DNA of 64,000 nucleotides from Fulvivirga sp. (GTDB lineage Bacteria > Bacteroidota > Bacteroidia > Cytophagales > Cyclobacteriaceae): positions 1 to 64,000 of the forward strand of contig JANQLQ010000147.1 of NCBI GenBank assembly GCA_028280565.1. Direction: 5' to 3'. Shown in pieces: positions 13,090-46,208 of the stretch; position 1 is the stretch's first letter; each line of letters opens with the position of its first letter. The notes under the pieces were generated by a model. The model saw only the letters and a list, made by a program, of their open reading frames with translations, was not told where the DNA came from and did no database searches. The translations under genes and the position numbers were made by a program.

Positions 13090-14079
13090 TTATTCTTCTT
13101 CAAGTTTGTATTTGGATAAGTCCATCCCGAAGGTGAGGTTTTTATCCTGTACTAACTGCTCCAATTCTGCGAGTGATTTTTTTCCAAAATTCCTGAATTT
13201 CATCATATCCGAGATTTCCAACCTTACCAAGTCCCCTAGTGTTTTCACATCAGCAGCTTTCAAGCAATTGTAAGCTCTTACAGAAAGGTCCAGGTCATTA
13301 AGAGAAGTCTTTAGAAGCTTTCTCATATGAAGCATCTCCTCGTCCACTTGCTCTATCTCTCCTCCTTTATCAGTCTCTAGCTCTATAGACTTATCTGAGA
13401 ACAACATAAAGTGCTGTATTAAGATATGAGCTGCCCCTTCCAATGCCTTTTCAGGGTGTACAGATCCGTCTGTTTCAATATCGATGAGTAATTGCTCATA
13501 ATCTGTTTTCTGTTCTACCCGTGTGTTCTCAACGCTGTATTTCACGTTTTTGATCGGGGTAAAAATGGCATCGATGGGAATGAAACCAAATACCTGCTCC
13601 GAAGGTTTGTTCTCTTCTGCGGGAAGGTACCCTCTTCCTTTGTCGATGGTAAGCTCAATTTCCATCTCTACGGAATCGTCGAGGTTACAGAGTACAAGTT
13701 CAGGATTCAATATCTCAAAAGCAGAAGTGAATTTGGCTATGTCGCCCGCTTTGAACTCTTTCTGATTTTTGATAGAAACTGTGATCTTATTATCAAATGA
13801 CTCGCCTATCTTTTTGAATCGAACCATTTTCAGGTTCAGTATAATTTCAGAAACATCCTCCACTACGCCTTCGATAGTAGAAAACTCATGCAACACGCCA
13901 GGTACTTTAATCCCGGTGATGGCGTACCCCTCTAAGGAAGAAAGCAATATTCTTCTCAGGGCATTACCTATTGTAACGCCATATCCCTTTTCAAGCGGTT
14001 TAAAAGTAAATAGGCCGCGGAAATCGTCCGCCTTTTCCATTGCGACCTTGTCAGGCATTTGAAATGCTAAAATCGACAT
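13090..14079 (-). CDS. rpoA: RNA polymerase subunit alpha
   Basis: This 329-residue protein has the alpha N-terminal dimerisation domain ([25 protein letters not shown] near residues 26-50) that assembles beta and beta-prime, a linker near 230-245, and a C-terminal helix-hairpin-helix domain ([24 protein letters not shown]) that contacts promoter DNA and activators. It is in the standard alpha-operon position, 5 bp before rplQ and 68 bp after rpsD. A strong stem-loop lies in the rpsD-rpoA gap. Confidence 0.98.
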
Positions 14080-35867: not shown

Positions 35868-36703
35868 CTTTGCACCTCCATGATCTCGATTTGGACAGAA
35901 TCCAATTCCATTTTCAAATTATTCCTGACCAAGTATACATGAGAAAGCCCGTTAAGATCACTGGCCAGCTCGATAGTGATATCATGGAAGGGGGATTCCT
36001 CGCTCAATTGGTAATCGGTAATGGTACCCACGGGTATATCCCGGGGAAATACGGCATTGTAACCCGAGGTAACGATCGTATCTCCCTCTTGAAGCTGGAT
36101 ATGGCGAGGTACATAAAGGATCTTAGCCCGGTAGGGACTGAGGCCGTCCCATTTCATGGTACACAAGTCCCCGGTCCTTTTGACTTTTGCGGAAACCAAG
36201 ACATCGGTATGCAATATAGAGGTCACTAAAGAAAAATGCGCAGAAACCGTTTTAACCTTCCCTACGATGCCCTTGTTATCGATCACCGCCATGCCGGGTT
36301 CTATATCACTATCTCTTCCTTTATTGATGGTGATATAATTTTCCAGCTGGCGCACCGAATTTTTGATGACTTTGGCATCAATGTAATCGAACTGGTTGAT
36401 GATCTCAGCATCTTGTATCTCACGGATATCCAGGCTGTAGAGACTTTGGTTAAGCTGGTTAACTTGTTTCTTCAGCGCTGCATTTTCAGCAGCCAGCTCT
36501 TGGTTCACTTTTTTTAACCCAAAATAATCCGTGATGCTACTGGAAAACTGTAACACACCGGCCGCGTAACGATTGGAGGAGTTAAAAAACTTGGCTCCCT
36601 GGTAAGGATTATTTCTTACGATCAGCCAAATACAGAGGAGTTCGAGGAATAAAAAGGTTAAAAAAGCCCTATACTGGTATAAAAACAGGAATAATCGTTG
36701 CAT
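35864..36703 (-). CDS. mreC: Rod shape-determining protein MreC
   Basis: This 279-residue bitopic protein has a membrane helix (about residues 10-28), a coiled coil (about 60-90: KVNQELAAENAALKKQVNQL) and the periplasmic beta domains with YITINKGRDSDIEPGMAVI and GIVGKVKTVSAHFSLV. MreC activates the PBP2-RodA pair. It follows mreB by 51 bp and overlaps mreD by 4 bp. Confidence 0.95.
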   Translation of the reverse strand: MQRLFLFLYQYRAFLTFLFLELLCIWLIVRNNPYQGAKFFNSSNRYAAGVLQFSSSITDYFGLKKVNQELAAENAALKKQVNQLNQSLYSLDIREIQDAEIINQFDYIDAKVIKNSVRQLENYITINKGRDSDIEPGMAVIDNKGIVGKVKTVSAHFSLVTSILHTDVLVSAKVKRTGDLCTMKWDGLSPYRAKILYVPRHIQLQEGDTIVTSGYNAVFPRDIPVGTITDYQLSEESPFHDITIELASDLNGLSHVYLVRNNLKMELDSVQIEIMEVQR

Positions 36704-36754
36704 TTATGCAGCAAAATTGTTCAAATCGCAAAAACACAAGGCCTGTCAAACGAC

Positions 36755-37780
36755 TTATGTCATCAACACAGCCTTGAACGAATTGAGGTTTTTCAAGGAG
36801 TTACCCGTACCTCTCACCACTGCCCTAAGGGGATCTTCCGCCACATGTATCGGTAACTTGGTTTTTAAAGCCAGCCGTTTGTCCAAACCACGAAGTAAAG
36901 CTCCGCCACCGGTTAAATGAATGCCATTATCATAGATATCAGCAGACAACTCGGGAGGCGAGATCTCTAGTGCTTTTAGCACCGCTTCTTCAATTTTTGA
37001 CACGGATTTATCAAGAGCAAAAGCTATTTCAGAATATGATATTTTTATAACCTTGGGAATACCGGTCATCAGGTCGCGGCCCCTGATCTCGTAATCTTCT
37101 GGGCCGTCATCCAGCTCTGTAAGCGCCGAACCTACTTCTATTTTCACCTTCTCGGCAGATCGCTCCCCGATCAGGAGATTATGCTGTCTCCTCATGTAAT
37201 CGAGGATGTCCCGGTTGAAGGTATCCCCGGCTACCCGGATAGATTGGTCACAGACAATGCCTGATAGGGCGATCACGGCAATCTCCGTGGTACCCCCCCC
37301 AATATCTACGATCATAGAACCTACCGGCCTTTCTATGTCAATCCCAATCCCGATAGCCGCGGCTATGGGCTCGTGGATCATGTACACTTCTTTGGCCCCG
37401 GCATGTTCGGCCGAGTCGCGCACGGCCCTTTTTTCCACCTCGGTGATGCCTGAAGGTATGCAGATCACCATGCGATGCGAGGCCGGGAAGAATTTTTTGC
37501 CACTGTCGATCATTTTGATCATTCCCCTGATCATATGCTCCGCGGCATGGAAATCGGCGATCACACCGTCCTTCAGAGGGCGGATCGTTTTGATATTTTC
37601 ATGCGTCTTTTCATGCATTTGCATGGCCTCCCTGCCGATGGCCAACACCTTGTTGGTATTCTTATCAATGGCGATGATCGAGGGCTCGTCTACTACAATT
37701 TTGTCTTTATGGATGATGAGGGTGTTAGCAGTACCAAGGTCTATAGCGATGTCGCTAGAAAAAATGTCAAACAATCCCAT
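36755..37780 (-). CDS. mreB: Rod shape-determining protein MreB (bacterial actin)
   Basis: This 341-residue actin homologue polymerises on the inner membrane and orients elongation. ATP-binding blocks are DIAIDLGTANTLIIHKD, IVDIGGGTTEIAVI and IHLTGGGALLRGLDKRL, and IMIHEPIAAAIGIGID occurs in its family place as YMIHEPIAAAIGIG. It heads the mre genes, 84 bp after purH on the same strand. Confidence 0.98.
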   Translation of the reverse strand: MGLFDIFSSDIAIDLGTANTLIIHKDKIVVDEPSIIAIDKNTNKVLAIGREAMQMHEKTHENIKTIRPLKDGVIADFHAAEHMIRGMIKMIDSGKKFFPASHRMVICIPSGITEVEKRAVRDSAEHAGAKEVYMIHEPIAAAIGIGIDIERPVGSMIVDIGGGTTEIAVIALSGIVCDQSIRVAGDTFNRDILDYMRRQHNLLIGERSAEKVKIEVGSALTELDDGPEDYEIRGRDLMTGIPKVIKISYSEIAFALDKSVSKIEEAVLKALEISPPELSADIYDNGIHLTGGGALLRGLDKRLALKTKLPIHVAEDPLRAVVRGTGNSLKNLNSFKAVLMT

Positions 37781-37864
37781 GTTATATAATCAAAAAGTTT
37801 GGGTTATGAACAAACGGAAATTTACAAATTAGTTTCTTTATAGAATCACCAAATAAAGTTTTTT

Positions 37865-39388
37865 TTAATGTTTAAAATGGCGTACTCCTGTAAATATCAT
37901 AGCCATGTTATGTTTATTGCAAAAATCAATCGAATCCTGGTCTTTAATTGACCCCCCAGGTTGGATGACTGCTTTAATCCCCTCACCAGATGCAATTTGC
38001 ACACAATCCGGGAACGGGAAAAAAGCATCCGAAGCCATTACCGCCCCGTTAAGTTCAAACCCAAACTCTTTCGCCTTCAGGATCGCTTGTTTTAAGGCAT
38101 CTACCCTGGACGTCTGCCCAACGCCACTCGCCAATAACTGTCCGTCCTTAGCCAATACGATGGTATTGGACTTGGTATGTTTACATACTTTGCTGGCAAA
38201 GATCAATGCAGACCTATCCGCATCCGTAGGCTCGGCATGTGTTACCGTTTTTAAATCCTCCACCCCGTCGGTCTTAAGATCACGATCCTGCTCAATGATC
38301 CCGTTAAGTAGGCTTTTGAATTGTTTTGTCGTATGTAATGGCTCCAGCTGTTGCAATACTATCCGGTTCTTTTTTTGCTTTAGTACCTCGAGTGCGTCAT
38401 CGTCAAAACCGGGTGCTACCAAAATCTCGAAGAAAAGCGAATGCATCTCTTCTGCAGCCGCTTTGTCCACTGTTTTATTAGTGACCAGGACACCTCCAAA
38501 AGCAGAAACTGTATCCGCTGCAAATGCTTTTTGATAGGCTTCTTTTACTGTAGGGGCTGTCGCCACACCACAGGCATTGGTATGTTTTAAAATGGCTAAA
38601 GTGGTCTCCTGGAACTCTTCTATTAAGTTTACCGCGGCATCAATGTCCACAAGATTGTTGTAGGAGAGCTCTTTGCCGTTCAACTGCCGCATCATGGACG
38701 AAAGCTCACCGTAAAAGGCTCCTTGCTGGTGCGGGTTTTCGCCATAGCGCAATGTTTTTTTCTCACGTACGCTTTGCTTAAAGCTACCTACAGGTGTATC
38801 CTGGTTAAAATAGTTAAATATGGCTGTATCGTAATTTGAGCTAACATCAAATGCGCGGGCTGCGAAGAGTTTCCTGTCTTGTAGATCGGTGGCGCATTCC
38901 TTCTCTGCCAAGATCGCGGCTACTTCCTCGTACTGGTCTCTCGACGAGACGATGAGCACGTCAGTAAAGTTTTTAGCAGCCGCCCGGATCAAAGATATTC
39001 CCCCGATGTCTATTTTTTCGATAATGTCCTGTTCCGAGGCGCCGGAGGCTAGGGTCTCTTCAAAGGGATACAGGTCTACCACTACCAGGTCAATAGGAGG
39101 TATTTCATATTGCTCGGCTTGTTGAAGATCATCTTCCAGCTCCCTACGGTATAAAATGCCCCCGAATACTTTTGGGTGCAACGTCTTTACCCTACCTCCC
39201 AAAATGGAGGGATAGCTCGTGAGGTCTTCCACGGCAGTGACCGGCACTCCCAGGTCCTCGATAAATTTTTGTGTCCCTCCCGTAGAGAATATTTGGACGC
39301 CGTGCTTAGCAAGCAGCTCGACGATAGGTTCTAGCTTATCCTTATAAAAAACAGAAATAAGCGCTGATCTGATCTTTTTCAATGACAT
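37865..39388 (-). CDS. purH: Bifunctional AICAR formyltransferase / IMP cyclohydrolase
   Basis: This 507-residue enzyme performs the last two steps of IMP synthesis. The N-terminal MGS-like cyclohydrolase domain shows IFSTGGTQKFIEDLGV and GGRVKTLHPKVFGGIL; the C-terminal AICAR transformylase domain carries LKHTNACGVATA, containing the catalytic Lys-His pair. A standalone PurN is encoded at 44.3-44.9 kb. purH next to mreB is a conserved order in Bacteroidota. Confidence 0.97.
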   Translation of the reverse strand: MSLKKIRSALISVFYKDKLEPIVELLAKHGVQIFSTGGTQKFIEDLGVPVTAVEDLTSYPSILGGRVKTLHPKVFGGILYRRELEDDLQQAEQYEIPPIDLVVVDLYPFEETLASGASEQDIIEKIDIGGISLIRAAAKNFTDVLIVSSRDQYEEVAAILAEKECATDLQDRKLFAARAFDVSSNYDTAIFNYFNQDTPVGSFKQSVREKKTLRYGENPHQQGAFYGELSSMMRQLNGKELSYNNLVDIDAAVNLIEEFQETTLAILKHTNACGVATAPTVKEAYQKAFAADTVSAFGGVLVTNKTVDKAAAEEMHSLFFEILVAPGFDDDALEVLKQKKNRIVLQQLEPLHTTKQFKSLLNGIIEQDRDLKTDGVEDLKTVTHAEPTDADRSALIFASKVCKHTKSNTIVLAKDGQLLASGVGQTSRVDALKQAILKAKEFGFELNGAVMASDAFFPFPDCVQIASGEGIKAVIQPGGSIKDQDSIDFCNKHNMAMIFTGVRHFKH

Positions 39389-39715
39389 GGTAGCTCATGA
39401 TTTAGGGTCTTTTTCCAAGGATAAGGTCTTTGCAAGACCGGCCAGGTAAGCCCCATACGTGGTAGCGGTTTTTAGTAAATGAAGCGGCAAAGCTATACAT
39501 TTTTATGAATATTAAGAACGAGCTGCCATAAGTGCCCGAAGAAAGTAAAGTGCTTCGTAACATAGATGGAGCATTGGAGGCTTTGAATTCATGGTTTCGA
39601 TTTGTAATCTACCCACCCCAGTTCGATTTAAAATCATCGTAGCCGAGGCTTAAATGAGGTTTTGAATAATTGCACAGTCTTTAAACCGGGGAGTAGCTTC
39701 CATTCTACGACTCCC

Positions 39716-39810
39716 TTAACTAGCGCAAGTTTGCAACTTGTGACTTTTTAATGATCCCCAGGGTTTGTAACCCGGCTAAACATACCCACATCCTACAAAA
39801 AAACCCCACT
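39716..39810 (+). repeat. Direct repeat B, left copy, upstream of the XRE gene
   Basis: This 95-bp copy matches 40365-40456 with only scattered substitutions and a 2-3 nt indel. Each copy contains two small palindromes: GCAAGTTTGCAACTTG and CCAGGGTTTGTAACCCGG. The pair brackets the 420-bp XRE gene. The rest of the 39389-39935 gap holds no gene; a short GGTCTT/AAGACC hairpin is present at 39425-39439. Confidence 0.8.
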
Positions 39811-39900
39811 AATATAACTACAGGCTTGCATGGTAGGATTGGTAATCAACTGGTATTTTCACAAGCCCAATTTGTATCTTCACCAATACGGGCCAGGTCC

Positions 39901-39931
39901 TTTGTAACTCCCCGCCAAGTGGATATATTTG
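39901..39931 (+). promoter_or_regulatory. Canonical promoter abutting the XRE start codon
   Basis: TTTG (39901-39904), 19 bp, TATATTTG (39924-39931) match the Bacteroidota consensus exactly. The ATG begins at 39936, only 4 bp after the -7 box, so the transcription start should fall at or just next to the initiation codon and the mRNA would be leaderless. Confidence 0.75.
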
Positions 39932-39935
39932 ATCT

Positions 39936-40355
39936 ATGGAACATACAACAAAACCCCGACCCGTGAACCTAGGAAGAAAAATAAGACACATGCGCGAGCT
40001 GCTCAATTTCACCCAAGAAGACGTAGCCGAAAAACTGGGCATCAGCCAACAGGCCGTTTCCAACATCGAATCTAACGAAACCGTAGACCATGATCAATTA
40101 ATGAGGATGGCGAAAGCCATGGGAGTCTCGGCAGATGCCATCAAACACCTCGATGAGGATGCCGCGGTTTACAATATCGTTACCACCCATGATAACAGTA
40201 GCAATGCCTTTAATTACAACTGCACGTTCAATCCTTTGGATAAATTGATGGAGGCCCTTGATAAAAATGAAAAGCTGTATGAGAAATTGCTAAAAAGCGA
40301 ACAGGAAAAGGTGGCGATGCTGGAAAGGTTTTTGCAAGAGAAAAAGGATCGCTGA
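39936..40355 (+). CDS. XRE-family helix-turn-helix regulator
   Basis: This 139-residue protein has a Cro/C1-type HTH at about residues 11-66 (KIRHMRELLNFTQEDVAEKL, GISQQAVSNIESNE) and a C-terminal part predicted to form a coiled coil (LDKLMEALDKNEKLYEKLLKSEQEKVAMLERFLQE). Such small XRE proteins are frequent accessory regulators in Bacteroidota. It is isolated: plus strand between two minus-strand blocks, flanked by 95-bp direct repeats, and followed by the CCCCCGG array. A canonical promoter lies 4 bp upstream of the start. Possible role: local regulator that binds the neighbouring palindromes; not shown. Confidence 0.9.
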   Translation: MEHTTKPRPVNLGRKIRHMRELLNFTQEDVAEKLGISQQAVSNIESNETVDHDQLMRMAKAMGVSADAIKHLDEDAAVYNIVTTHDNSSNAFNYNCTFNPLDKLMEALDKNEKLYEKLLKSEQEKVAMLERFLQEKKDR

Positions 40356-40364
40356 CCCGGGCTC

Positions 40365-40456
40365 TTAACTGGCGCAAGTTTGCAACTTGCGCCCTTTTAG
40401 TGACCCCCAGGGTTTGTAACCCGGCTAAACACACCCATATCCTACAAAAACCCACT
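40365..40456 (+). repeat. Direct repeat B, right copy, downstream of the XRE gene
   Basis: This is the second copy of the repeat at 39716-39810. It starts 9 bp after the XRE stop codon and contains the perfect palindrome GCGCAAGTT-TGC-AACTTGCGC (40372-40392) followed by CCTTTTAG, which could serve as the gene's transcript end, and the CCAGGGTTTGTAACCCGG palindrome. Confidence 0.8.
40372..40392 (+). terminator. Hairpin at the XRE gene 3' end
   Basis: A perfect 9-bp stem (GCGCAAGTT / AACTTGCGC) with a 3-nt loop starts 17 bp past the XRE stop codon and is followed by CCTTTTAG. The poor T-run makes it a possible rather than certain terminator; it is also part of direct repeat B. Confidence 0.4.
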
Positions 40457-40484
40457 CGCCAGCGCCTATTTTGGGAGATAATTG

Positions 40485-40760
40485 CCCCGGCTTGATCGAA
40501 TTGCCAGGAAAATCTTTCAAAACTCCCCCGGGTGTATTTTTTTACCCCCCGGGTAGCCTTTTTATCTCCCCGGAAAGGCCAAAACATCCCCCGGAAAAGC
40601 AATATATTCCCCCGGGATCGAAAAAAAGCCCCCGGAGAGCAGGTCACCTCCCAAGAAACCTGTTATTCAGGCCCCGGGAAAAATTTTATTTGGCAGGAAA
40701 AATACTTTATCCCCCGGACAGAATTTTATTTGGCGAGAAGGATATACTATCCCCCCCGGT
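40485..40760. repeat. Degenerate array of CCCCCGG motifs phased at about 21 bp
   Basis: C/G junctions of CCCC(C)GG motifs occur at 40488, 40529, 40550, 40571, 40592, 40613, 40633, 40675, 40715 and 40757, with weaker CAGG/GGCGAG-like remnants near 40506, 40652, 40696 and 40734. Five consecutive units are spaced exactly 21 bp. Spacers are A/T-rich and not conserved, except that the last two double units share AATTTTATTTGGC(A/G)(G/A)G. The motif core (CCCCGG, often CCCGGG) is a dyad. No stable gene is apparent, although both strands stay open over part of the array because 21 bp equals seven codons. The rest of the 537-bp gap is unremarkable. Confidence 0.75.
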
Positions 40761-40892
40761 TTAAGTTCCTGCGCATCTGTTAGCGACGATCGTGATAAAA
40801 ACATGCCGGGCAAACGCACTGCCCGGGTGTCTTCGTTTTATGAACGAGAACAAGTGAGGAGATAGCGGGCCAAAGCATGCTGGAGAAGCCCC

Positions 40893-43559
40893 TCATTTAA
40901 ACCCTGGCAGTTTAAATTTCATCATTACTTCACCGGTTTCTTCGTCGATCTCTATTTTTTGGTTTTCTATGCCCATCTCTTGCCCAGTACTCATTTTATA
41001 AAGCCCAGCCAAGAACCCAAGCCCTTGGTTCATCACGTCTTCCATTTCTTTTATCTTTCCATGCTGGTCTTGATCGGCCTTTCCAGGTATGGGGGTCTCT
41101 CCTGGCGCAGGCTTTTCCATCTGCTTTTTTTCCCGTGGCTCTTTTTTCCCGTGGCCCTGGGTGTCTTCTAGGCTGTTTATAGCGTTAATTTCTTGCAAAA
41201 GTTCGTTTTCTTCCTCTTGGATATCCCCTAAATCATCCCACTGGGGTAGTTCTTCAATGAGTTGTTCTAATTGCTTTAAGAATTGTCCTTTTCCTTTCTC
41301 TGAAAAATCGACGATGTCCAAGTCAGCAGAATCATCAAGCACCCCGTCAAACAGGTTTTGTTTTAAAACCAGGCCTGCGGCAATCTTCTGCTCGATAGAA
41401 TGGAGGCTGATAAGGTTGATCACCGTGAGATGTTCACTTTTTTGTCCTAAACGATCGATCCTGCCGATGCGTTGATTCTTTTTAGAGGGATTCCAGGGCA
41501 GTTCAAAGTTGATGATAGTATCTGCCACTTGGAGGTTTAGCCCAGCTCCGCCTGCCTCGGTAGAAAGAAAGACATTACATCCCGGGTCATTCTCAAATTT
41601 TTTGACCAGGCGCCCCCTGTGTTTCACCGGCACTTTCCCGTTAAGCTCAGTAAATTCAATATTGTTGTCCCTAAGCATTTGCCCTATCAACTGGTTCATC
41701 TTCACCCATTCGGAAAATATGATCACCTTCCGGTCACTTCCAGGCAAATTCAACTTTTCTGTCAAAATATGCTTTAGCTCCATAAGCTTAGGAGAGTCGT
41801 GGGATTTATCATCTACTAAGGCAGAGGAGTCACACACCATACGCATATTGGTAAGCAAGTGCATAAGCATCTGCATGTCAAAAGGTGTTTTAAATTTTTT
41901 TCTTAGTATTTGGCTTACCCCAGAAGCATACCCGGCATGTAATTCACCTTGATAGGGAGTTAAAGCGACAGGCACGTCAATCTGCCGGATATTGGGCAGC
42001 TCATTTAAGACGGCTCTTTTTTCGCGCCGGATCAAAATCTCCTTTATGCGTTCTTTTAACGCATTCAAATTATAGTAACCGAGTATTTTGTCTCTTTCAG
42101 CAGGGTCAAAAACACAATGCTGGTAAGAGAATTCCCACAACGGGGTTAAGAAATATGGGTCTAAAAATATAGTGATGGAATAGAGGTCCAATAGTTTGTT
42201 CTCTATGGGTGTACCCGTGATGGCCAGCGCGTGCTTTTTCCCGATCCTGCGAATGGCGCTGTGCGTTTTTGTATTGAAATTTTTAATACGCTGGGCCTCG
42301 TCAAGAATAAGGAAATCTATCTTGCTTTCATTAATGTACCGGCTGTCCTTAAGGACAGCCTCATAATTGGTGATAAAAAAATACCCATCAAATTCGGCAT
42401 AGATCTTCCTTCTCTCGTGTGGAGTTCCCTCCACTACCACAGCCCCTTGATCGGTAAATCTTTCAATTTCACTTTTCCATTGTGCTTTTAATGAAGCCGG
42501 GCAGATCACGAGGGTTTTTTGAAAACCAAAGGTTGATTTTTTGACGATGGCAGCACCTATGGCCTGGAGAGTTTTCCCCAAACCCATATCGTCCGCAATA
42601 ATGGCACCTTTCTTAAAAGCAGTAAAAGAGATGCCCGCCTCTTGGTATGGAAAAGGGGTCACTTTCAACTCGCTAAGGTCTAATTTGGTCTTTTGGGCCA
42701 ACGTCATTAATGAATATCGCTGGTACTCACGGTCTATCTTCTCAAAAACTTCAGGCCTGACCAGGATATTATCGTACTCTTCTATCTCCCGGATGAAAAA
42801 AAGCAGGTCCCTAAGGTTACTCTCCGAGACGTATCTATCTTCACCGAAATAGGAAAATAGAAGGTTGGAAAGATTGTCGGGAAGTGGATGAGGATAATAC
42901 CATGTTACTTGGTAGTCACGTAAGGGGTCCGTGTAAACTTCTACAAATGGATACGTCTTGTGAAGCTTTTTGTACAGGCCTCTATTCATTTCAAGCACAT
43001 GGAATACGTATAATATATGCTTGGTAGTGCCCAGTTTATTGGTTTTCCAATCGATATTATTAATGTACCCGGTCTTTTCTTCGAAGTCGCGAAGGGTAAC
43101 ATAATATTTCTCGCCCTTTTCGTTGATAAGAAGATGCTCGCCATAGATATTATTCGCGAATTCAATCTTATATTCGGCCTTCAGCGCTTTTTCTTGCCTC
43201 TCCTTTAAAACGCGCTGCATCATCCCGGCACGGGTATATATCTTACCCTCCATAGAAAGAGGTTCGAGCAGGGATCGATAATACTCTTTCAAAAGGAGCA
43301 ACCCCGCAAAATAGATTTCATTCCATTCTTGCTCTATCTCCCTTTTATAAGGAGTAAACTTTTCATGCGAGTCTAATTCCAGTACGAATTCACCCGTTTC
43401 TCCTTCTATTTCTATGCTGAAATAGAAGTGGTCACTGCCCTGGGCCACGATAAGACATTGCTCTCTTTCGTTTATTTTTGATGCTGCCATCAACTGCCGG
43501 GGTGTGAGATAATCCCCTGATTGCAGGCGTTTGATATTCTCTTGTAGAATGGTCTTCAT
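40893..43559 (-). CDS. SNF2-family DNA-dependent ATPase/helicase
   Basis: This 888-residue protein has a unique N-terminal region (about 1-295, no clear SWIM zinc motif), then the SNF2 ATPase core: Walker A DDMGLGKTLQAIG (about 323-335), DEAQ (420-423), LAITGTPIENKLLDLYS, and the second lobe with STEAGGAGLNLQVADTI and QRIGRIDRLGQ. The last 130 residues include a Lys/Pro/Glu-rich linker and an acidic tail. Bacterial SNF2 proteins of this kind remodel nucleic acid-protein complexes, often with RNA polymerase (RapA) or in defence islands; no partner genes are adjacent. The substrate is unknown. Confidence 0.92.
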   Translation of the reverse strand: MKTILQENIKRLQSGDYLTPRQLMAASKINEREQCLIVAQGSDHFYFSIEIEGETGEFVLELDSHEKFTPYKREIEQEWNEIYFAGLLLLKEYYRSLLEPLSMEGKIYTRAGMMQRVLKERQEKALKAEYKIEFANNIYGEHLLINEKGEKYYVTLRDFEEKTGYINNIDWKTNKLGTTKHILYVFHVLEMNRGLYKKLHKTYPFVEVYTDPLRDYQVTWYYPHPLPDNLSNLLFSYFGEDRYVSESNLRDLLFFIREIEEYDNILVRPEVFEKIDREYQRYSLMTLAQKTKLDLSELKVTPFPYQEAGISFTAFKKGAIIADDMGLGKTLQAIGAAIVKKSTFGFQKTLVICPASLKAQWKSEIERFTDQGAVVVEGTPHERRKIYAEFDGYFFITNYEAVLKDSRYINESKIDFLILDEAQRIKNFNTKTHSAIRRIGKKHALAITGTPIENKLLDLYSITIFLDPYFLTPLWEFSYQHCVFDPAERDKILGYYNLNALKERIKEILIRREKRAVLNELPNIRQIDVPVALTPYQGELHAGYASGVSQILRKKFKTPFDMQMLMHLLTNMRMVCDSSALVDDKSHDSPKLMELKHILTEKLNLPGSDRKVIIFSEWVKMNQLIGQMLRDNNIEFTELNGKVPVKHRGRLVKKFENDPGCNVFLSTEAGGAGLNLQVADTIINFELPWNPSKKNQRIGRIDRLGQKSEHLTVINLISLHSIEQKIAAGLVLKQNLFDGVLDDSADLDIVDFSEKGKGQFLKQLEQLIEELPQWDDLGDIQEEENELLQEINAINSLEDTQGHGKKEPREKKQMEKPAPGETPIPGKADQDQHGKIKEMEDVMNQGLGFLAGLYKMSTGQEMGIENQKIEIDEETGEVMMKFKLPGFK

Positions 43560-43729
43560 AAGGTTATTTTAGACGAAAATCGGGATTATAGGATTGTAAA
43601 GAACCTAATGATAAGCCTTGGAATAAATACGTAAAAACCTCATTTAGTGTGAATTTGGGATGCAAAATTATAGGGGCAAAGCTGCTTGTGATTCCCAGGC
43701 CCGGCCTTCGTCTCCATCCTTATTCACAG

Positions 43730-43781
43730 CAGGTTCAGAGAACCTGTACATATACTGGCACGGGTTTGGAAAACCCGCGCC
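43730..43781. repeat. Pair of REP-like palindromes
   Basis: CAGGTTCAGAGAACCTG (43730-43746) and a near-palindrome of CACGGGTTT with AAAACCCGCG (about 43757-43781) lie 10 bp apart, the same two-palindrome layout as in direct repeat B. They lie in the 773-bp gap 43560-44332, which has no gene and whose 3' half holds the family A copy; the rest shows nothing distinctive. Confidence 0.5.
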
Positions 43782-44086
43782 AAACGGGAAATGGGAATTA
43801 AATTATTAAATCCAGCACAGGGTCATCAACACCCCAATTTTTCATGCCTGGGGAACTATATATTCTTGTTCCAAATTCACTTTGTTTTAAATTCTAAACA
43901 ATAAAAACTTATTTTTCTTACTGTTAAATCATCCTTGGCACGCTGCGGTTGAACCAATCAACTGATCCTGTAACATATTGATCCAACGTGTCAAAATTAA
44001 TACATTTATAGGCCTATCACAGCATACCTAGAATGAAGTTTGCAAACTAATTGTCTAAGAATCGCCAAGAAGAGTCTTGGGGCCTA

Positions 44087-44281
44087 GTCGTGTCACACCT
44101 CAAATGATCCTTAAGGTAGGATGATGAATTCTTTTTACAGTAATAGGAAATTCTCAACTAGTCAGCAATAGGCAAAGGGCAGTTGGCAAAACATAGAGTT
44201 GCCGATTGTTTATTGCCGACCATCGACTTTGGGAACGAGACCGAAAAAATAATTTAACCGTCGACGTAGATGTGACACGAC
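44087..44281 (-). repeat. Full-length 195-bp family A element with perfect terminal inverted repeats
   Basis: This copy starts with GTCGTGTCACA (44087-44097) and ends with its exact reverse complement TGTGACACGAC (44271-44281). On the minus strand the interior contains GTTCCCAAAGTCG, the GGCAATAAACAATCGGCAAC block and CTTTGCCTATTGCTGACTAG, matching copies at 46521-46715 and 50438-50628. Length and terminal repeats suggest a MITE-like non-autonomous element; I see no clear target-site duplication. Confidence 0.7.
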
Positions 44282-44332
44282 CGTCAGCCAGTAATTATAT
44301 TAATAGTAGCCCCAAGGGGTCATCTTACTGTA

Positions 44333-44935
44333 TTACAAAGATCCAGGCATTATCTTAACACCTTTAATAACATTCTCTATGATTTTCGGATAGTACCCAT
44401 ATTCTAGTGCATGCACCTTTGCTGCAATTTCGGTAACATCGTCCCCCGGATCAATGGTACACCTGGCCTGGAAGATTACCTGTCCCTCATCGTATTGTTC
44501 GTTAACATAATGGATCGTGATCCCCGTTTCCTTTTCCCCGGCTTCTTTTACTGCTTTGTGTACGCGGTCGCCATACATGCCTTTCCCTCCATATTTAGGA
44601 AGCAGCGCCGGGTGGATGTTTAAGATACGGTTTGGATATGCGTTGATCAAGGCGGCGGGCATCAGCCATAGGAATCCGGCCAAAACAATAAAATCGATAT
44701 TGCCCTTTTTTAATTGATCCGCAAGCCGATCCGTTTCATAGATATCCTCTCTTGTAAAGCTGGCAGCCTTTACACCGAGATCTTTGGCTCTTTGTAATAC
44801 ATAGGCAGAAGAGCGATTGGAAAGCACGAGGCTTACTTCTATCCCCGGTACTTTTTTGAAATAATCAATGATGTTTTGGGCATTGGTGCCACTGCCGGAA
44901 GCAAATATGGCAATCCTGTTTATGGGTGTACTCAC
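44333..44935 (-). CDS. purN: Phosphoribosylglycinamide formyltransferase
   Basis: This 200-residue enzyme transfers a formyl group from 10-formyltetrahydrofolate to GAR in purine synthesis. It starts with IAIFASGSGTNAQNIIDYF (phosphate-binding loop), followed by the ILNIHPALLPKYGGKGMYG active-site stretch (His/Asn), and then ETGITIHYVNEQYDEG with catalytic Asp. Family size is normal. It stands alone, separated from the UbiA gene by 105 bp. Confidence 0.94.
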   Translation of the reverse strand: MSTPINRIAIFASGSGTNAQNIIDYFKKVPGIEVSLVLSNRSSAYVLQRAKDLGVKAASFTREDIYETDRLADQLKKGNIDFIVLAGFLWLMPAALINAYPNRILNIHPALLPKYGGKGMYGDRVHKAVKEAGEKETGITIHYVNEQYDEGQVIFQARCTIDPGDDVTEIAAKVHALEYGYYPKIIENVIKGVKIMPGSL

Positions 44936-45040
44936 TAATTCAAGACGTATAAGGTTTATGAGGCCAAGTTATTTAAAAAAAACTGAAAAATGAGGATCAT
45001 TTATTGACCCCGGTAGGGAAAGACCGCGACCATGCCGTCA

Positions 45041-45919
45041 CTAAAAAAAGGCCATACTTAATATTCCCAAAAGCATGATCACTTTGCAGTAATTGCTGAG
45101 TTGATTAAAGTGCTTTACCGTATCCGCACGCTTTAGCTTAGCAGTAATAAACCCTAATGGCACTACCAGTCCCACACAAAAAACCATGAGTTCCGTACCT
45201 ACGAAAAGGTAAGTCAAAAAGCACATGCCACCCAGGAATAACAGGGAAAATAGGTAGACCAGGGTTTTCGTGCGCCGAACTCCATACACCACGGGTAAGG
45301 TCCTACAGCCAAAAGTAGAGTCGCCTTGCAGGTCCTCGATATCTTTTACAATCTCACGGATAAGGGTAAAAGAAAAAGCGAACGCTGAAAAGGCCACGAT
45401 CATCAAGTTGCCCGAATTGAAAAAAACGTCTACAATGTATACCGCCAGCCCAGTAAGAACCGCCACAGCAAAATTACCTACAAAGGGCATCCGCTTTAGC
45501 TGGTTGGAATAAAGCCACAATAATCCTACGGTCAGCAGGTTTATGGCACCTATCTTTAGTGACAGGGACAAGCCTAACAGTACCCCGATAGAACTCAACA
45601 CAACATGTGAAGCCATGGCTACCCTTCGCTTTAAAACCCGGCCCACTACAACACGTTCGGGTTTATTGATCAGGTCTATTTTGACGTCGTAGTAATCGTT
45701 AATAATGTACCCTGCCGCAGCTATCAAGACCGAAGATAACGAGAGAATGAAAAGCTTGGGATGTAATAGGAAATACAATGTCCCCTCGCCCGATTCTACC
45801 AAAAAAAAGGCCACAAAATATTGAGTAAGTACGATGATGAGCAAATTCCACAGTCTCGTGATCTGGATAAATCCTGACAGCGAAAAATTACGGATGTTAG
45901 AGGGTGATGAATTTGCCAC
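45041..45919 (-). CDS. UbiA family prenyltransferase
   Basis: This roughly 292-residue integral membrane protein attaches a prenyl chain to a small acceptor. The first Asp-rich motif NDYYDVKIDLINKPERVV and the second, DIEDLQGDSTFGCRTLPV, bracket about eight hydrophobic helices. It resembles the geranylgeranylglycerol-phosphate/protohaem-like UbiA proteins of Bacteroidota; the acceptor is not known. The frame is open to 46045, but the extra 42 residues are Cys-rich and unlike the family; I chose GTG at 45919 (VANSSPSNIR) because no internal ATG is available. Confidence 0.85.
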   Translation of the reverse strand: MANSSPSNIRNFSLSGFIQITRLWNLLIIVLTQYFVAFFLVESGEGTLYFLLHPKLFILSLSSVLIAAAGYIINDYYDVKIDLINKPERVVVGRVLKRRVAMASHVVLSSIGVLLGLSLSLKIGAINLLTVGLLWLYSNQLKRMPFVGNFAVAVLTGLAVYIVDVFFNSGNLMIVAFSAFAFSFTLIREIVKDIEDLQGDSTFGCRTLPVVYGVRRTKTLVYLFSLLFLGGMCFLTYLFVGTELMVFCVGLVVPLGFITAKLKRADTVKHFNQLSNYCKVIMLLGILSMAFF

Positions 45920-46208
45920 CAGGTCAAGTTTTTTTTGACAAAGGTATAAGGGTTCGCAGGGATTTACAAAAGAGACCGATGGGTTGTATTGAGCCCGGGT
46001 CGAACATAAACCTTCTATTCCAAGCCCAAACTGATTCATTATCAAGCATTTTGAACTATTATATCGAATCCCAAGGCATGACTAGGACTACTTTGTCAGA
46101 TTTAAGTCATTGATAATGAGGTTTTAGTTTCAAACCTAGTGCCAGCGAGCTGTAAAGGATGGGGGATCCACATCCTGTTCTAAATCTATCCAAACCTATA
46201 CCTAAGAA

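Follow-up and report, generated by a model that had tools for sequence, protein, structure and literature searches.

A helically phased CCCCGG array in a Fulvivirga genome and a class of 21-bp arrays beside genes of an all-helical protein family

Between an XRE gene and an SNF2-family helicase gene of Fulvivirga sp., short CCCCGG cores recur about every 21 bp, and the question raised by this locus is what, if anything, reads them. An earlier note had proposed a multi-site platform bound on one face of the helix, with the adjacent XRE protein as one possible binder. We examined the array in the window, by which we mean the whole stretch of 64,000 nucleotides that was analysed, in the remainder of the genome and in related genomes.

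The array of the window and its copies

The features of the locus are as follows.

40485..40760, + strand: 21-bp phased array of CCCCGG cores, assessed by shuffle tests
40671..40743, + strand: AT-word module, AATTTTATTT and then GAATTTTATTTGG ~40 bp further (model R1, alignment A1)
39936..40355, + strand: XRE/HTH_3 gene, 139 aa (Pfam HTH_3, E 6.5e-14), 130 bp from the array
40893..43559, - strand: SNF2-family helicase gene, 3' end towards the array
40478..40757, + strand: repeated stretch, equal to C1:7933-8209 on the - strand, 80% identity, units in the same order

We found that all ten CCCCGG sites of the array, which start on the + strand at 40485, 40526, 40547, 40568, 40589, 40610, 40630, 40672, 40712 and 40754, form a single chain at steps of 20-22 or 40-43 bp. 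The gaps in order are 41, 21, 21, 21, 21, 20, 42, 40 and 42 bp, which bears out the earlier statement of at least ten motifs spaced by 20-21 bp or double that (every gap is 20-21 or 40-42 bp), with four intervals of exactly 21 bp in a row in place of the five that had been reported. At the gaps between cores, degenerate units carry on the period (~40503, ~40650, ~40693, ~40732). When the 300 bp array stretch was dinucleotide-shuffled 10,000 times, no chain exceeded 3, and upon random placement of ten sites in 300 bp a chain of ten was obtained in 0 of 100,000 trials (maximum 8); comparable phasing in random sequence, which had been named as grounds for giving up the proposal, was thus not reached. 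Across the window CCCCGG is about twofold up (61 observed vs 31.6 expected), the array accounting for 10 of the 61. These results confirm that the 21-bp CCCCGG array is real.

The 3' end of the SNF2 gene faces the array, which therefore sits between two convergent genes. A dispersed repeat with the palindrome GCAAGTTTGCAACTTG flanks the XRE gene on both sides (~39711-39809 and ~40366-40453) and has a further copy on contig C1. Two + frames run without a stop through most of the array, as repeats of 7 codons, and we considered whether it could be a gene; the copy on C1 has 1-bp indels, and in most other arrays at least four of the six frames contain stops, so the window array is not read as one. 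An Rfam scan of the window array returned a chance miRNA match and nothing else.

Judged by the alignment, the window/C1 array has been copied without its flanking genes, the C1 copy lying between other genes on a contig from which XRE is absent. Other arrays of this genome, to which the terminal AT words led, have different cores and an unchanged phase:

Contig C198: cores CCGCGAA
Contig C131: cores CCGCGG and CCTCGG
Contig C162: remnant

Upon searching 58 relatives for a three-site CCCCGG pattern, we observed repeated matches in three genomes (G000, G010, G013) and a single match in each of two others (G021, G047). The search of genome and relatives that had been advised yielded the C1 copy and repeated matches in few relatives, and no contig of this genome that bears one of its other full-length XRE copies is among the matches. 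We built the sequence model R1 from 12 array stretches of G000, G010 and G013, and it matches strongly in these three, weakly or not at all in the other 12 genomes of the genus (best E 3.9e-4, G008), and at E 2.2e-5 in G021, of another genus; since R1 derives from those three genomes, arrays of another dialect would be missed. The AT-word module of the window scores 65.6 bits against R1 (E 2.5e-17), being itself among the 12 building stretches, and in alignment A1 it is the most similar part between arrays of different species. The spacers, described earlier as mostly unrelated, are so within the window array, but AATTTTATTT and, ~41 bp on, a GAATATTATTTGG-like word are common to arrays of different species. 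Some arrays consist of 42-bp alternating units, and in G013 arrays have been copied without a gene (C35/C46/C56). Plasmid and phage sequences searched with the array gave no match in either, and a search of literature listings returned nothing on such an array. Separately, a Cas9-like ORF, named by eye, lies in G021 (L306 8370-13013) ~300 bp behind a CCATGG array of the same class.

Arrays of another kind were observed ~0.05-2.2 kb from XRE genes, where they are commoner than in the background. They are second-style 21-bp arrays with less variable units, found near XRE homologues of this genome (L037 ~2450-2650 on C314; L038 ~775-950 on C325) and at other Bacteroidota XRE loci (L110 3830-4100, L111 2560-2800, L112 5460-5870), the last of them starting ~50 bp behind the XRE stop codon. 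A CRISPR-like array with the repeat CTTCTAATTGCATCTTGTAGAGATTGAAAC (L036 ~635-860, C112) lies less than 1 kb from another XRE copy.

Helical period, conserved cores and the gene beside the arrays

Next, we investigated the period and the conservation of the class as a whole. Across 40 arrays we measured 342 spacings of 15-27 bp, with cores picked so that 20, 21 and 22 had equal weight, and obtained a mean of 20.76 bp (244 at 21, 83 at 20 and 8 at 22), in agreement with B-DNA phasing at a multiple of 10.4-10.5 bp across many arrays. Most arrays of the class have a core of their own. The orientation of the core differs between arrays, and eight arrays with non-palindromic cores read as two-armed, the left arm carrying the reverse complement of the core and the right arm the core. 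When aligned copies are compared, the core outlasts the spacer in three of seven comparisons, these being the more diverged pairs: window/C1 (core 3/58 vs spacer 57/218 differences, p 0.0003), L170/L171 (4/66 vs 97/262, p 1.7e-7) and L245/L246 (2/63 vs 57/197, p 3.6e-6, without indels). In the remaining four (L170/L173, L211/L233, and C46 of G013 against C35 and against C56) there was no significant difference between core and spacer. The idea of a one-face, multi-site binding platform fits well with the average period of the 40 related arrays and with cores that outlast spacers in the more diverged pairs.

The usual place of the arrays is directly 3' of a gene for an all-helical protein of ~232-235 aa, and several begin just behind the stop codon. 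We collected 47 distinct genes of this family, from which L213, L174 and L242 were dropped for a short downstream region or a broken frame, leaving 44, of which 43 had at least 300 bp downstream. With an array called at a 21-bp-lag score above 12 (the thresholds for linkage and background scans being the analyst's choice), arrays were found downstream of 40/43 family genes, upstream of 3/43 and in the gene body of 0/44. A stricter second detector called 38/43, missing L080, L217, L220, L225 and L239, although an array is visible by eye at L080, L217 and L239. In the first scan L239 is just under threshold, and L220 and L225 have no array within 500 bp behind the gene. In background sequence we detected no array in the 260 kb taken from this genome and a single one in the 376 kb taken from others; that one has a CATGG core and lies in a genome that encodes an HW-tailed, CATGG-linked protein.

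In this genome we found two intact family genes (C131, C198), each followed by an array, and a fragment at C162; CCCCCGG is the core of neither of these two arrays. The family gene occurs in 27/390 sampled genomes of the bacterial family, in 10/84 genera, compared with 6/390 genomes sampled from the order and 1/395 from the phylum, the one being the window's own genome. Within the genus of 15 genomes, the three with a family gene are the same three with strong R1 array matches. G017 has a family gene and no R1 match.

The structure model of the family protein is all-helical (pLDDT 89, pTM 0.70), and a fold search with it gave no PDB or viral-model match at E<=0.001; a sequence search of the PDB gave one weak match (E 0.039). 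Among the members scanned, Pfam (two members) gave nothing above cut-off, with a sub-threshold Spectrin match in one, PADLOC gave no match and PHROG chance-level matches at most. Searches of plasmids with P0002, of phages with P0001 and of viral contigs with the family protein yielded no match. Nine of ten members scanned show weak profile similarity to the NCBIfam family PQLLE (NF052641; best E 2.9e-07), but the best reaches 30.4 bits against a cut-off of 80, and an array above threshold lies downstream of only 1/16 PQLLE-family loci (9 over the cut-off and 7 weaker); we do not count the proteins as members of PQLLE.

Several known systems resemble parts of this architecture. Iterons of plasmid origins are direct repeats about two helical turns apart on which molecules of a protein from a neighbouring gene line up, and they usually conserve the whole repeat unit. 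The array class shares the repeats of about two turns next to a protein gene; it differs in that ~7 bp are kept while the spacers drift, in that no Rep protein was recognised, and in that the arrays lie on chromosomal-scale contigs, occur several times with cores that differ, and follow the gene at its 3' end. An iteron-type origin was rejected both by the genes present, the window array having XRE and SNF2 as neighbours and the usual partner being without a Pfam match above cut-off or a PADLOC match, and by the three diverged copy pairs, which keep the core and not the spacer. At the partition sites parC/ParR and tubC/TubR, arrays in helical phase nucleate a superstructure of protein, and phasing is likewise what the present arrays have. 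On the other side of the comparison, the usual partner family has no Pfam match above cut-off (two members), and copies in G922 lie at 1.70, 2.09 and 3.72 Mb. A protein that covaries with the core was observed; no ParM/TubZ-like motor partner was recognised by eye at 20 loci, where up to two neighbouring proteins per side were read over their first 70 residues. CRISPR repeats are ~23-50 bp long and come with cas genes. A constant core with variable spacers is a likeness to CRISPR, whereas here the core is ~7 bp, the spacers are ~14 bp, the period is fixed at two helix turns and spacer words are common to several species; with a 7-bp core, a 21-bp period and no cas gene recognised among the ORFs of 36000-46000, a CRISPR identity was rejected for the window array.

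Covariation of a tail residue with the core

Upon closer examination of the C-terminal tails, we observed that the tail varies with the core of the array downstream. The pattern was spotted by eye first and then tested on the same genes, 39 of the 44, with L220, L225 and L241 (no usable array) and L223 and L238 (no S-x-Y tail) set aside. The tail S-x-H-W goes with a CATGG core in 3/3 genes from two genera, S-x-Y-L with TCAGG in 4/4 genes of one genus, S-x-Y-H with CCGGGA in 5/8 genes from four genera (the other three, from a single genus, having TACAGG), and S-x-Y-F with GCAGGA in 4/9 genes from three genera (exceptions L154, L226, L227, L236 and L243). The code holds in 16/24 genes with the tails HW, YL, YH and YF, and the remaining 15/39 genes (tails YK, YR, YW, YY, YN and QH) follow no clear rule. 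Among cross-genus pairs, a common core was seen in 15/70 with identical tail dipeptides, compared with 14/592 for different dipeptides, a result reached by 0/5000 within-genus tail shuffles; with a looser core match the counts are 19/70 vs 55/592 (3/5000 shuffles). When we scanned 232 alignment columns, column 230 alone had z>=4 (5.76, a value reached in 2/50,000 shuffles), the next being 3.38. Four broken gene copies were also examined as an independent check of the code, and the tail was readable in two (L242, L175) and not in the others (L230, L247): L242 has YL with TCAGG and fits the code, and L175 has YR with GCAGGA and belongs to no rule.

Such a signal could arise in part from physical linkage of the 3' end of the gene with the array. 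In G929, contigs L289 and L288 are 99.87% identical over 7827 bp, with the mismatches confined to the final ~127 bp and reaching to ~20 bp short of the stop codon of the family gene, and after the divergence point the tails, arrays and downstream genes differ; tail and array thus change as one block, and part of the covariation could be linkage. Against pure linkage, the columns near 230 show little (226, z -0.22; 228, z -0.85; 231, z 1.12). Paralogues of one genome can have different cores while being near-identical in the body: in the first 205 columns L212/L234 are 100% identical, L226/L240 99% and L210/L233 95%. A tail residue that varies with the site sequence suggests an undescribed protein-DNA recognition system.

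As a separate observation on L288, a stretch flagged as a second array (13401-13800) is a 21-bp (7-codon) tandem repeat within a frame that by eye resembles a REP-associated (Y1) transposase.

Candidate explanations and the meaning of the array class

The explanation that we favour, at a probability of about 0.58, is that the window array is an orphan of this dispersed class, in which the tail of a helical partner protein reads the core and protein copies align on one face of the DNA. Support comes from the C1 copy without XRE, the arrays behind the family genes, the period, the cores kept in the more diverged pairs and the tail-core covariation; weighing against it are the exceptions to the code, the four copy comparisons without a significant difference, the block change in G929, the array-free L220 and L225, the differing cores of C131 and C198, the RNA folds, and Pfam and fold searches without a match to a DNA-binding domain. 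A short, array-specific core would recur at each two turns of B-DNA, a register that puts all sites on the same side of the helix, and the usual partner would be the all-helical protein of ~235 aa whose gene immediately precedes the array on the 5' side. The C-terminal tail of this protein (..GY-x-S-x-Y-Z-..) would contact the core, with residue Z setting the preferred sequence, and many copies may sit side by side on one face and form a nucleoprotein platform. Anchoring or local compaction would be candidate roles, as would segregating the locus or regulating the region of the gene itself. The site in the window may either be bound in trans by one of the two intact family proteins of this genome (C131, C198), whose cores are similar and not identical, or be the relic of a lost gene.

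We consider it highly improbable that the window array instead serves the neighbouring XRE protein as an operator platform, much as had first been put forward. The nearness of the gene speaks for it, as do other 21-bp arrays near 2/7 other XRE regions of this genome and 3/6 XRE loci elsewhere, compared with a background of 1 per ~636 kb; however, those arrays differ by eye from the window array in sequence and in spacer conservation, and the window array does not travel with the gene. Its C1 copy has no XRE nearby, the genome's seven other full-length XRE copies (some at contig ends, so that their neighbourhoods are visible in part) are all absent from C1 and from the contigs with a three-site CCCCGG match, and the same architecture is found elsewhere 3' of a different gene family. 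XRE is thus probably not the partner of the window array, and the interpretation given in the earlier note is, as a whole, partly supported. A function at the RNA level, with the array transcribed as a 3' RNA in which the cores base-pair in a fold-back or act as a binding sponge, is unlikely, though it is the rival to which we give most weight. It would account for the usual position 3' of a gene and for the complementary cores of the eight two-armed arrays, and RNA folds gave a negative z in 31/31 arrays (mean -3.98 for the 8 two-armed, -2.67 for 14 with one orientation and -3.98 for 9 palindromic ones), although the folded stretches contain terminator-like hairpins and these z-scores are not from the arrays alone. 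Of 39 arrays checked for terminator-like hairpins, 12 lie at or beyond such a hairpin, 7 precede one, a single array contains one and the other 19 lack any; moreover, core orientation varies, the window array has no excess structure on the + strand (z 0.04; -1.7 on the - strand), and the mean spacing fits B-DNA rather than an A-form helix, in which two turns come to ~22.

Two further explanations treat the arrays as passive or mobile sequence. Growth of a neutral, dispersed satellite by slippage of a 21-bp unit appears somewhat less probable than a role as RNA: gene-less copies (window/C1 and those of G013), the 42-bp alternating units and the lack of a core-spacer difference between near-identical copies speak for it, but diverged copies keep their cores while the spacers change with few or no indels, one protein residue covaries with the core, and the own-genome background holds no array. 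We see still less reason to regard the arrays as termini or remnants of a non-autonomous mobile element for which Y1 transposases or the family protein would supply the mobility. Array-only copies do occur at unrelated places, genes that by eye resemble Y1 transposases adjoin several loci, and inverted GGACGCCACA / TGTGGCGTCC motifs bracket two G013 arrays (L149 8160-8448 and L153 6855-7102) like the ends of small elements; yet of 16 sources, 2 have the GGACGCCACA motif at both flanks, L151 has it at one and 13 lack it, and scans of several family members assigned the protein to no catalytic family.

Beyond the window, the orphan-array reading belongs to a wider possibility, to which we give slightly less than even odds, of an undescribed, self-matched protein-array system of one bacterial family, probably of the Cytophagales, in which a helical protein of ~235 aa reads its own downstream, two-turn-phased array through a short C-terminal tail and essentially one residue sets the core. 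Jointly with it would stand a tail code in which F corresponds to GCAGGA, H to CCGGGA, L to TCAGGA and W to CATGG. Were a single tail residue to set the core, paralogues in the same genome could keep separate arrays. Even if their function proves modest, the arrays display from their letters alone both helix phasing and cores that are kept while spacers change. If the wider reading is true, a protein family without an assigned function would join the DNA-binding proteins, with a short tail in the place of a known DNA-binding fold, and it would offer a simple residue-to-sequence preference that point exchange could test in vitro. It would also mean that natural sets of parallel sites exist inside one cell, and it would account for intergenic repeats of a kind overlooked in annotation.
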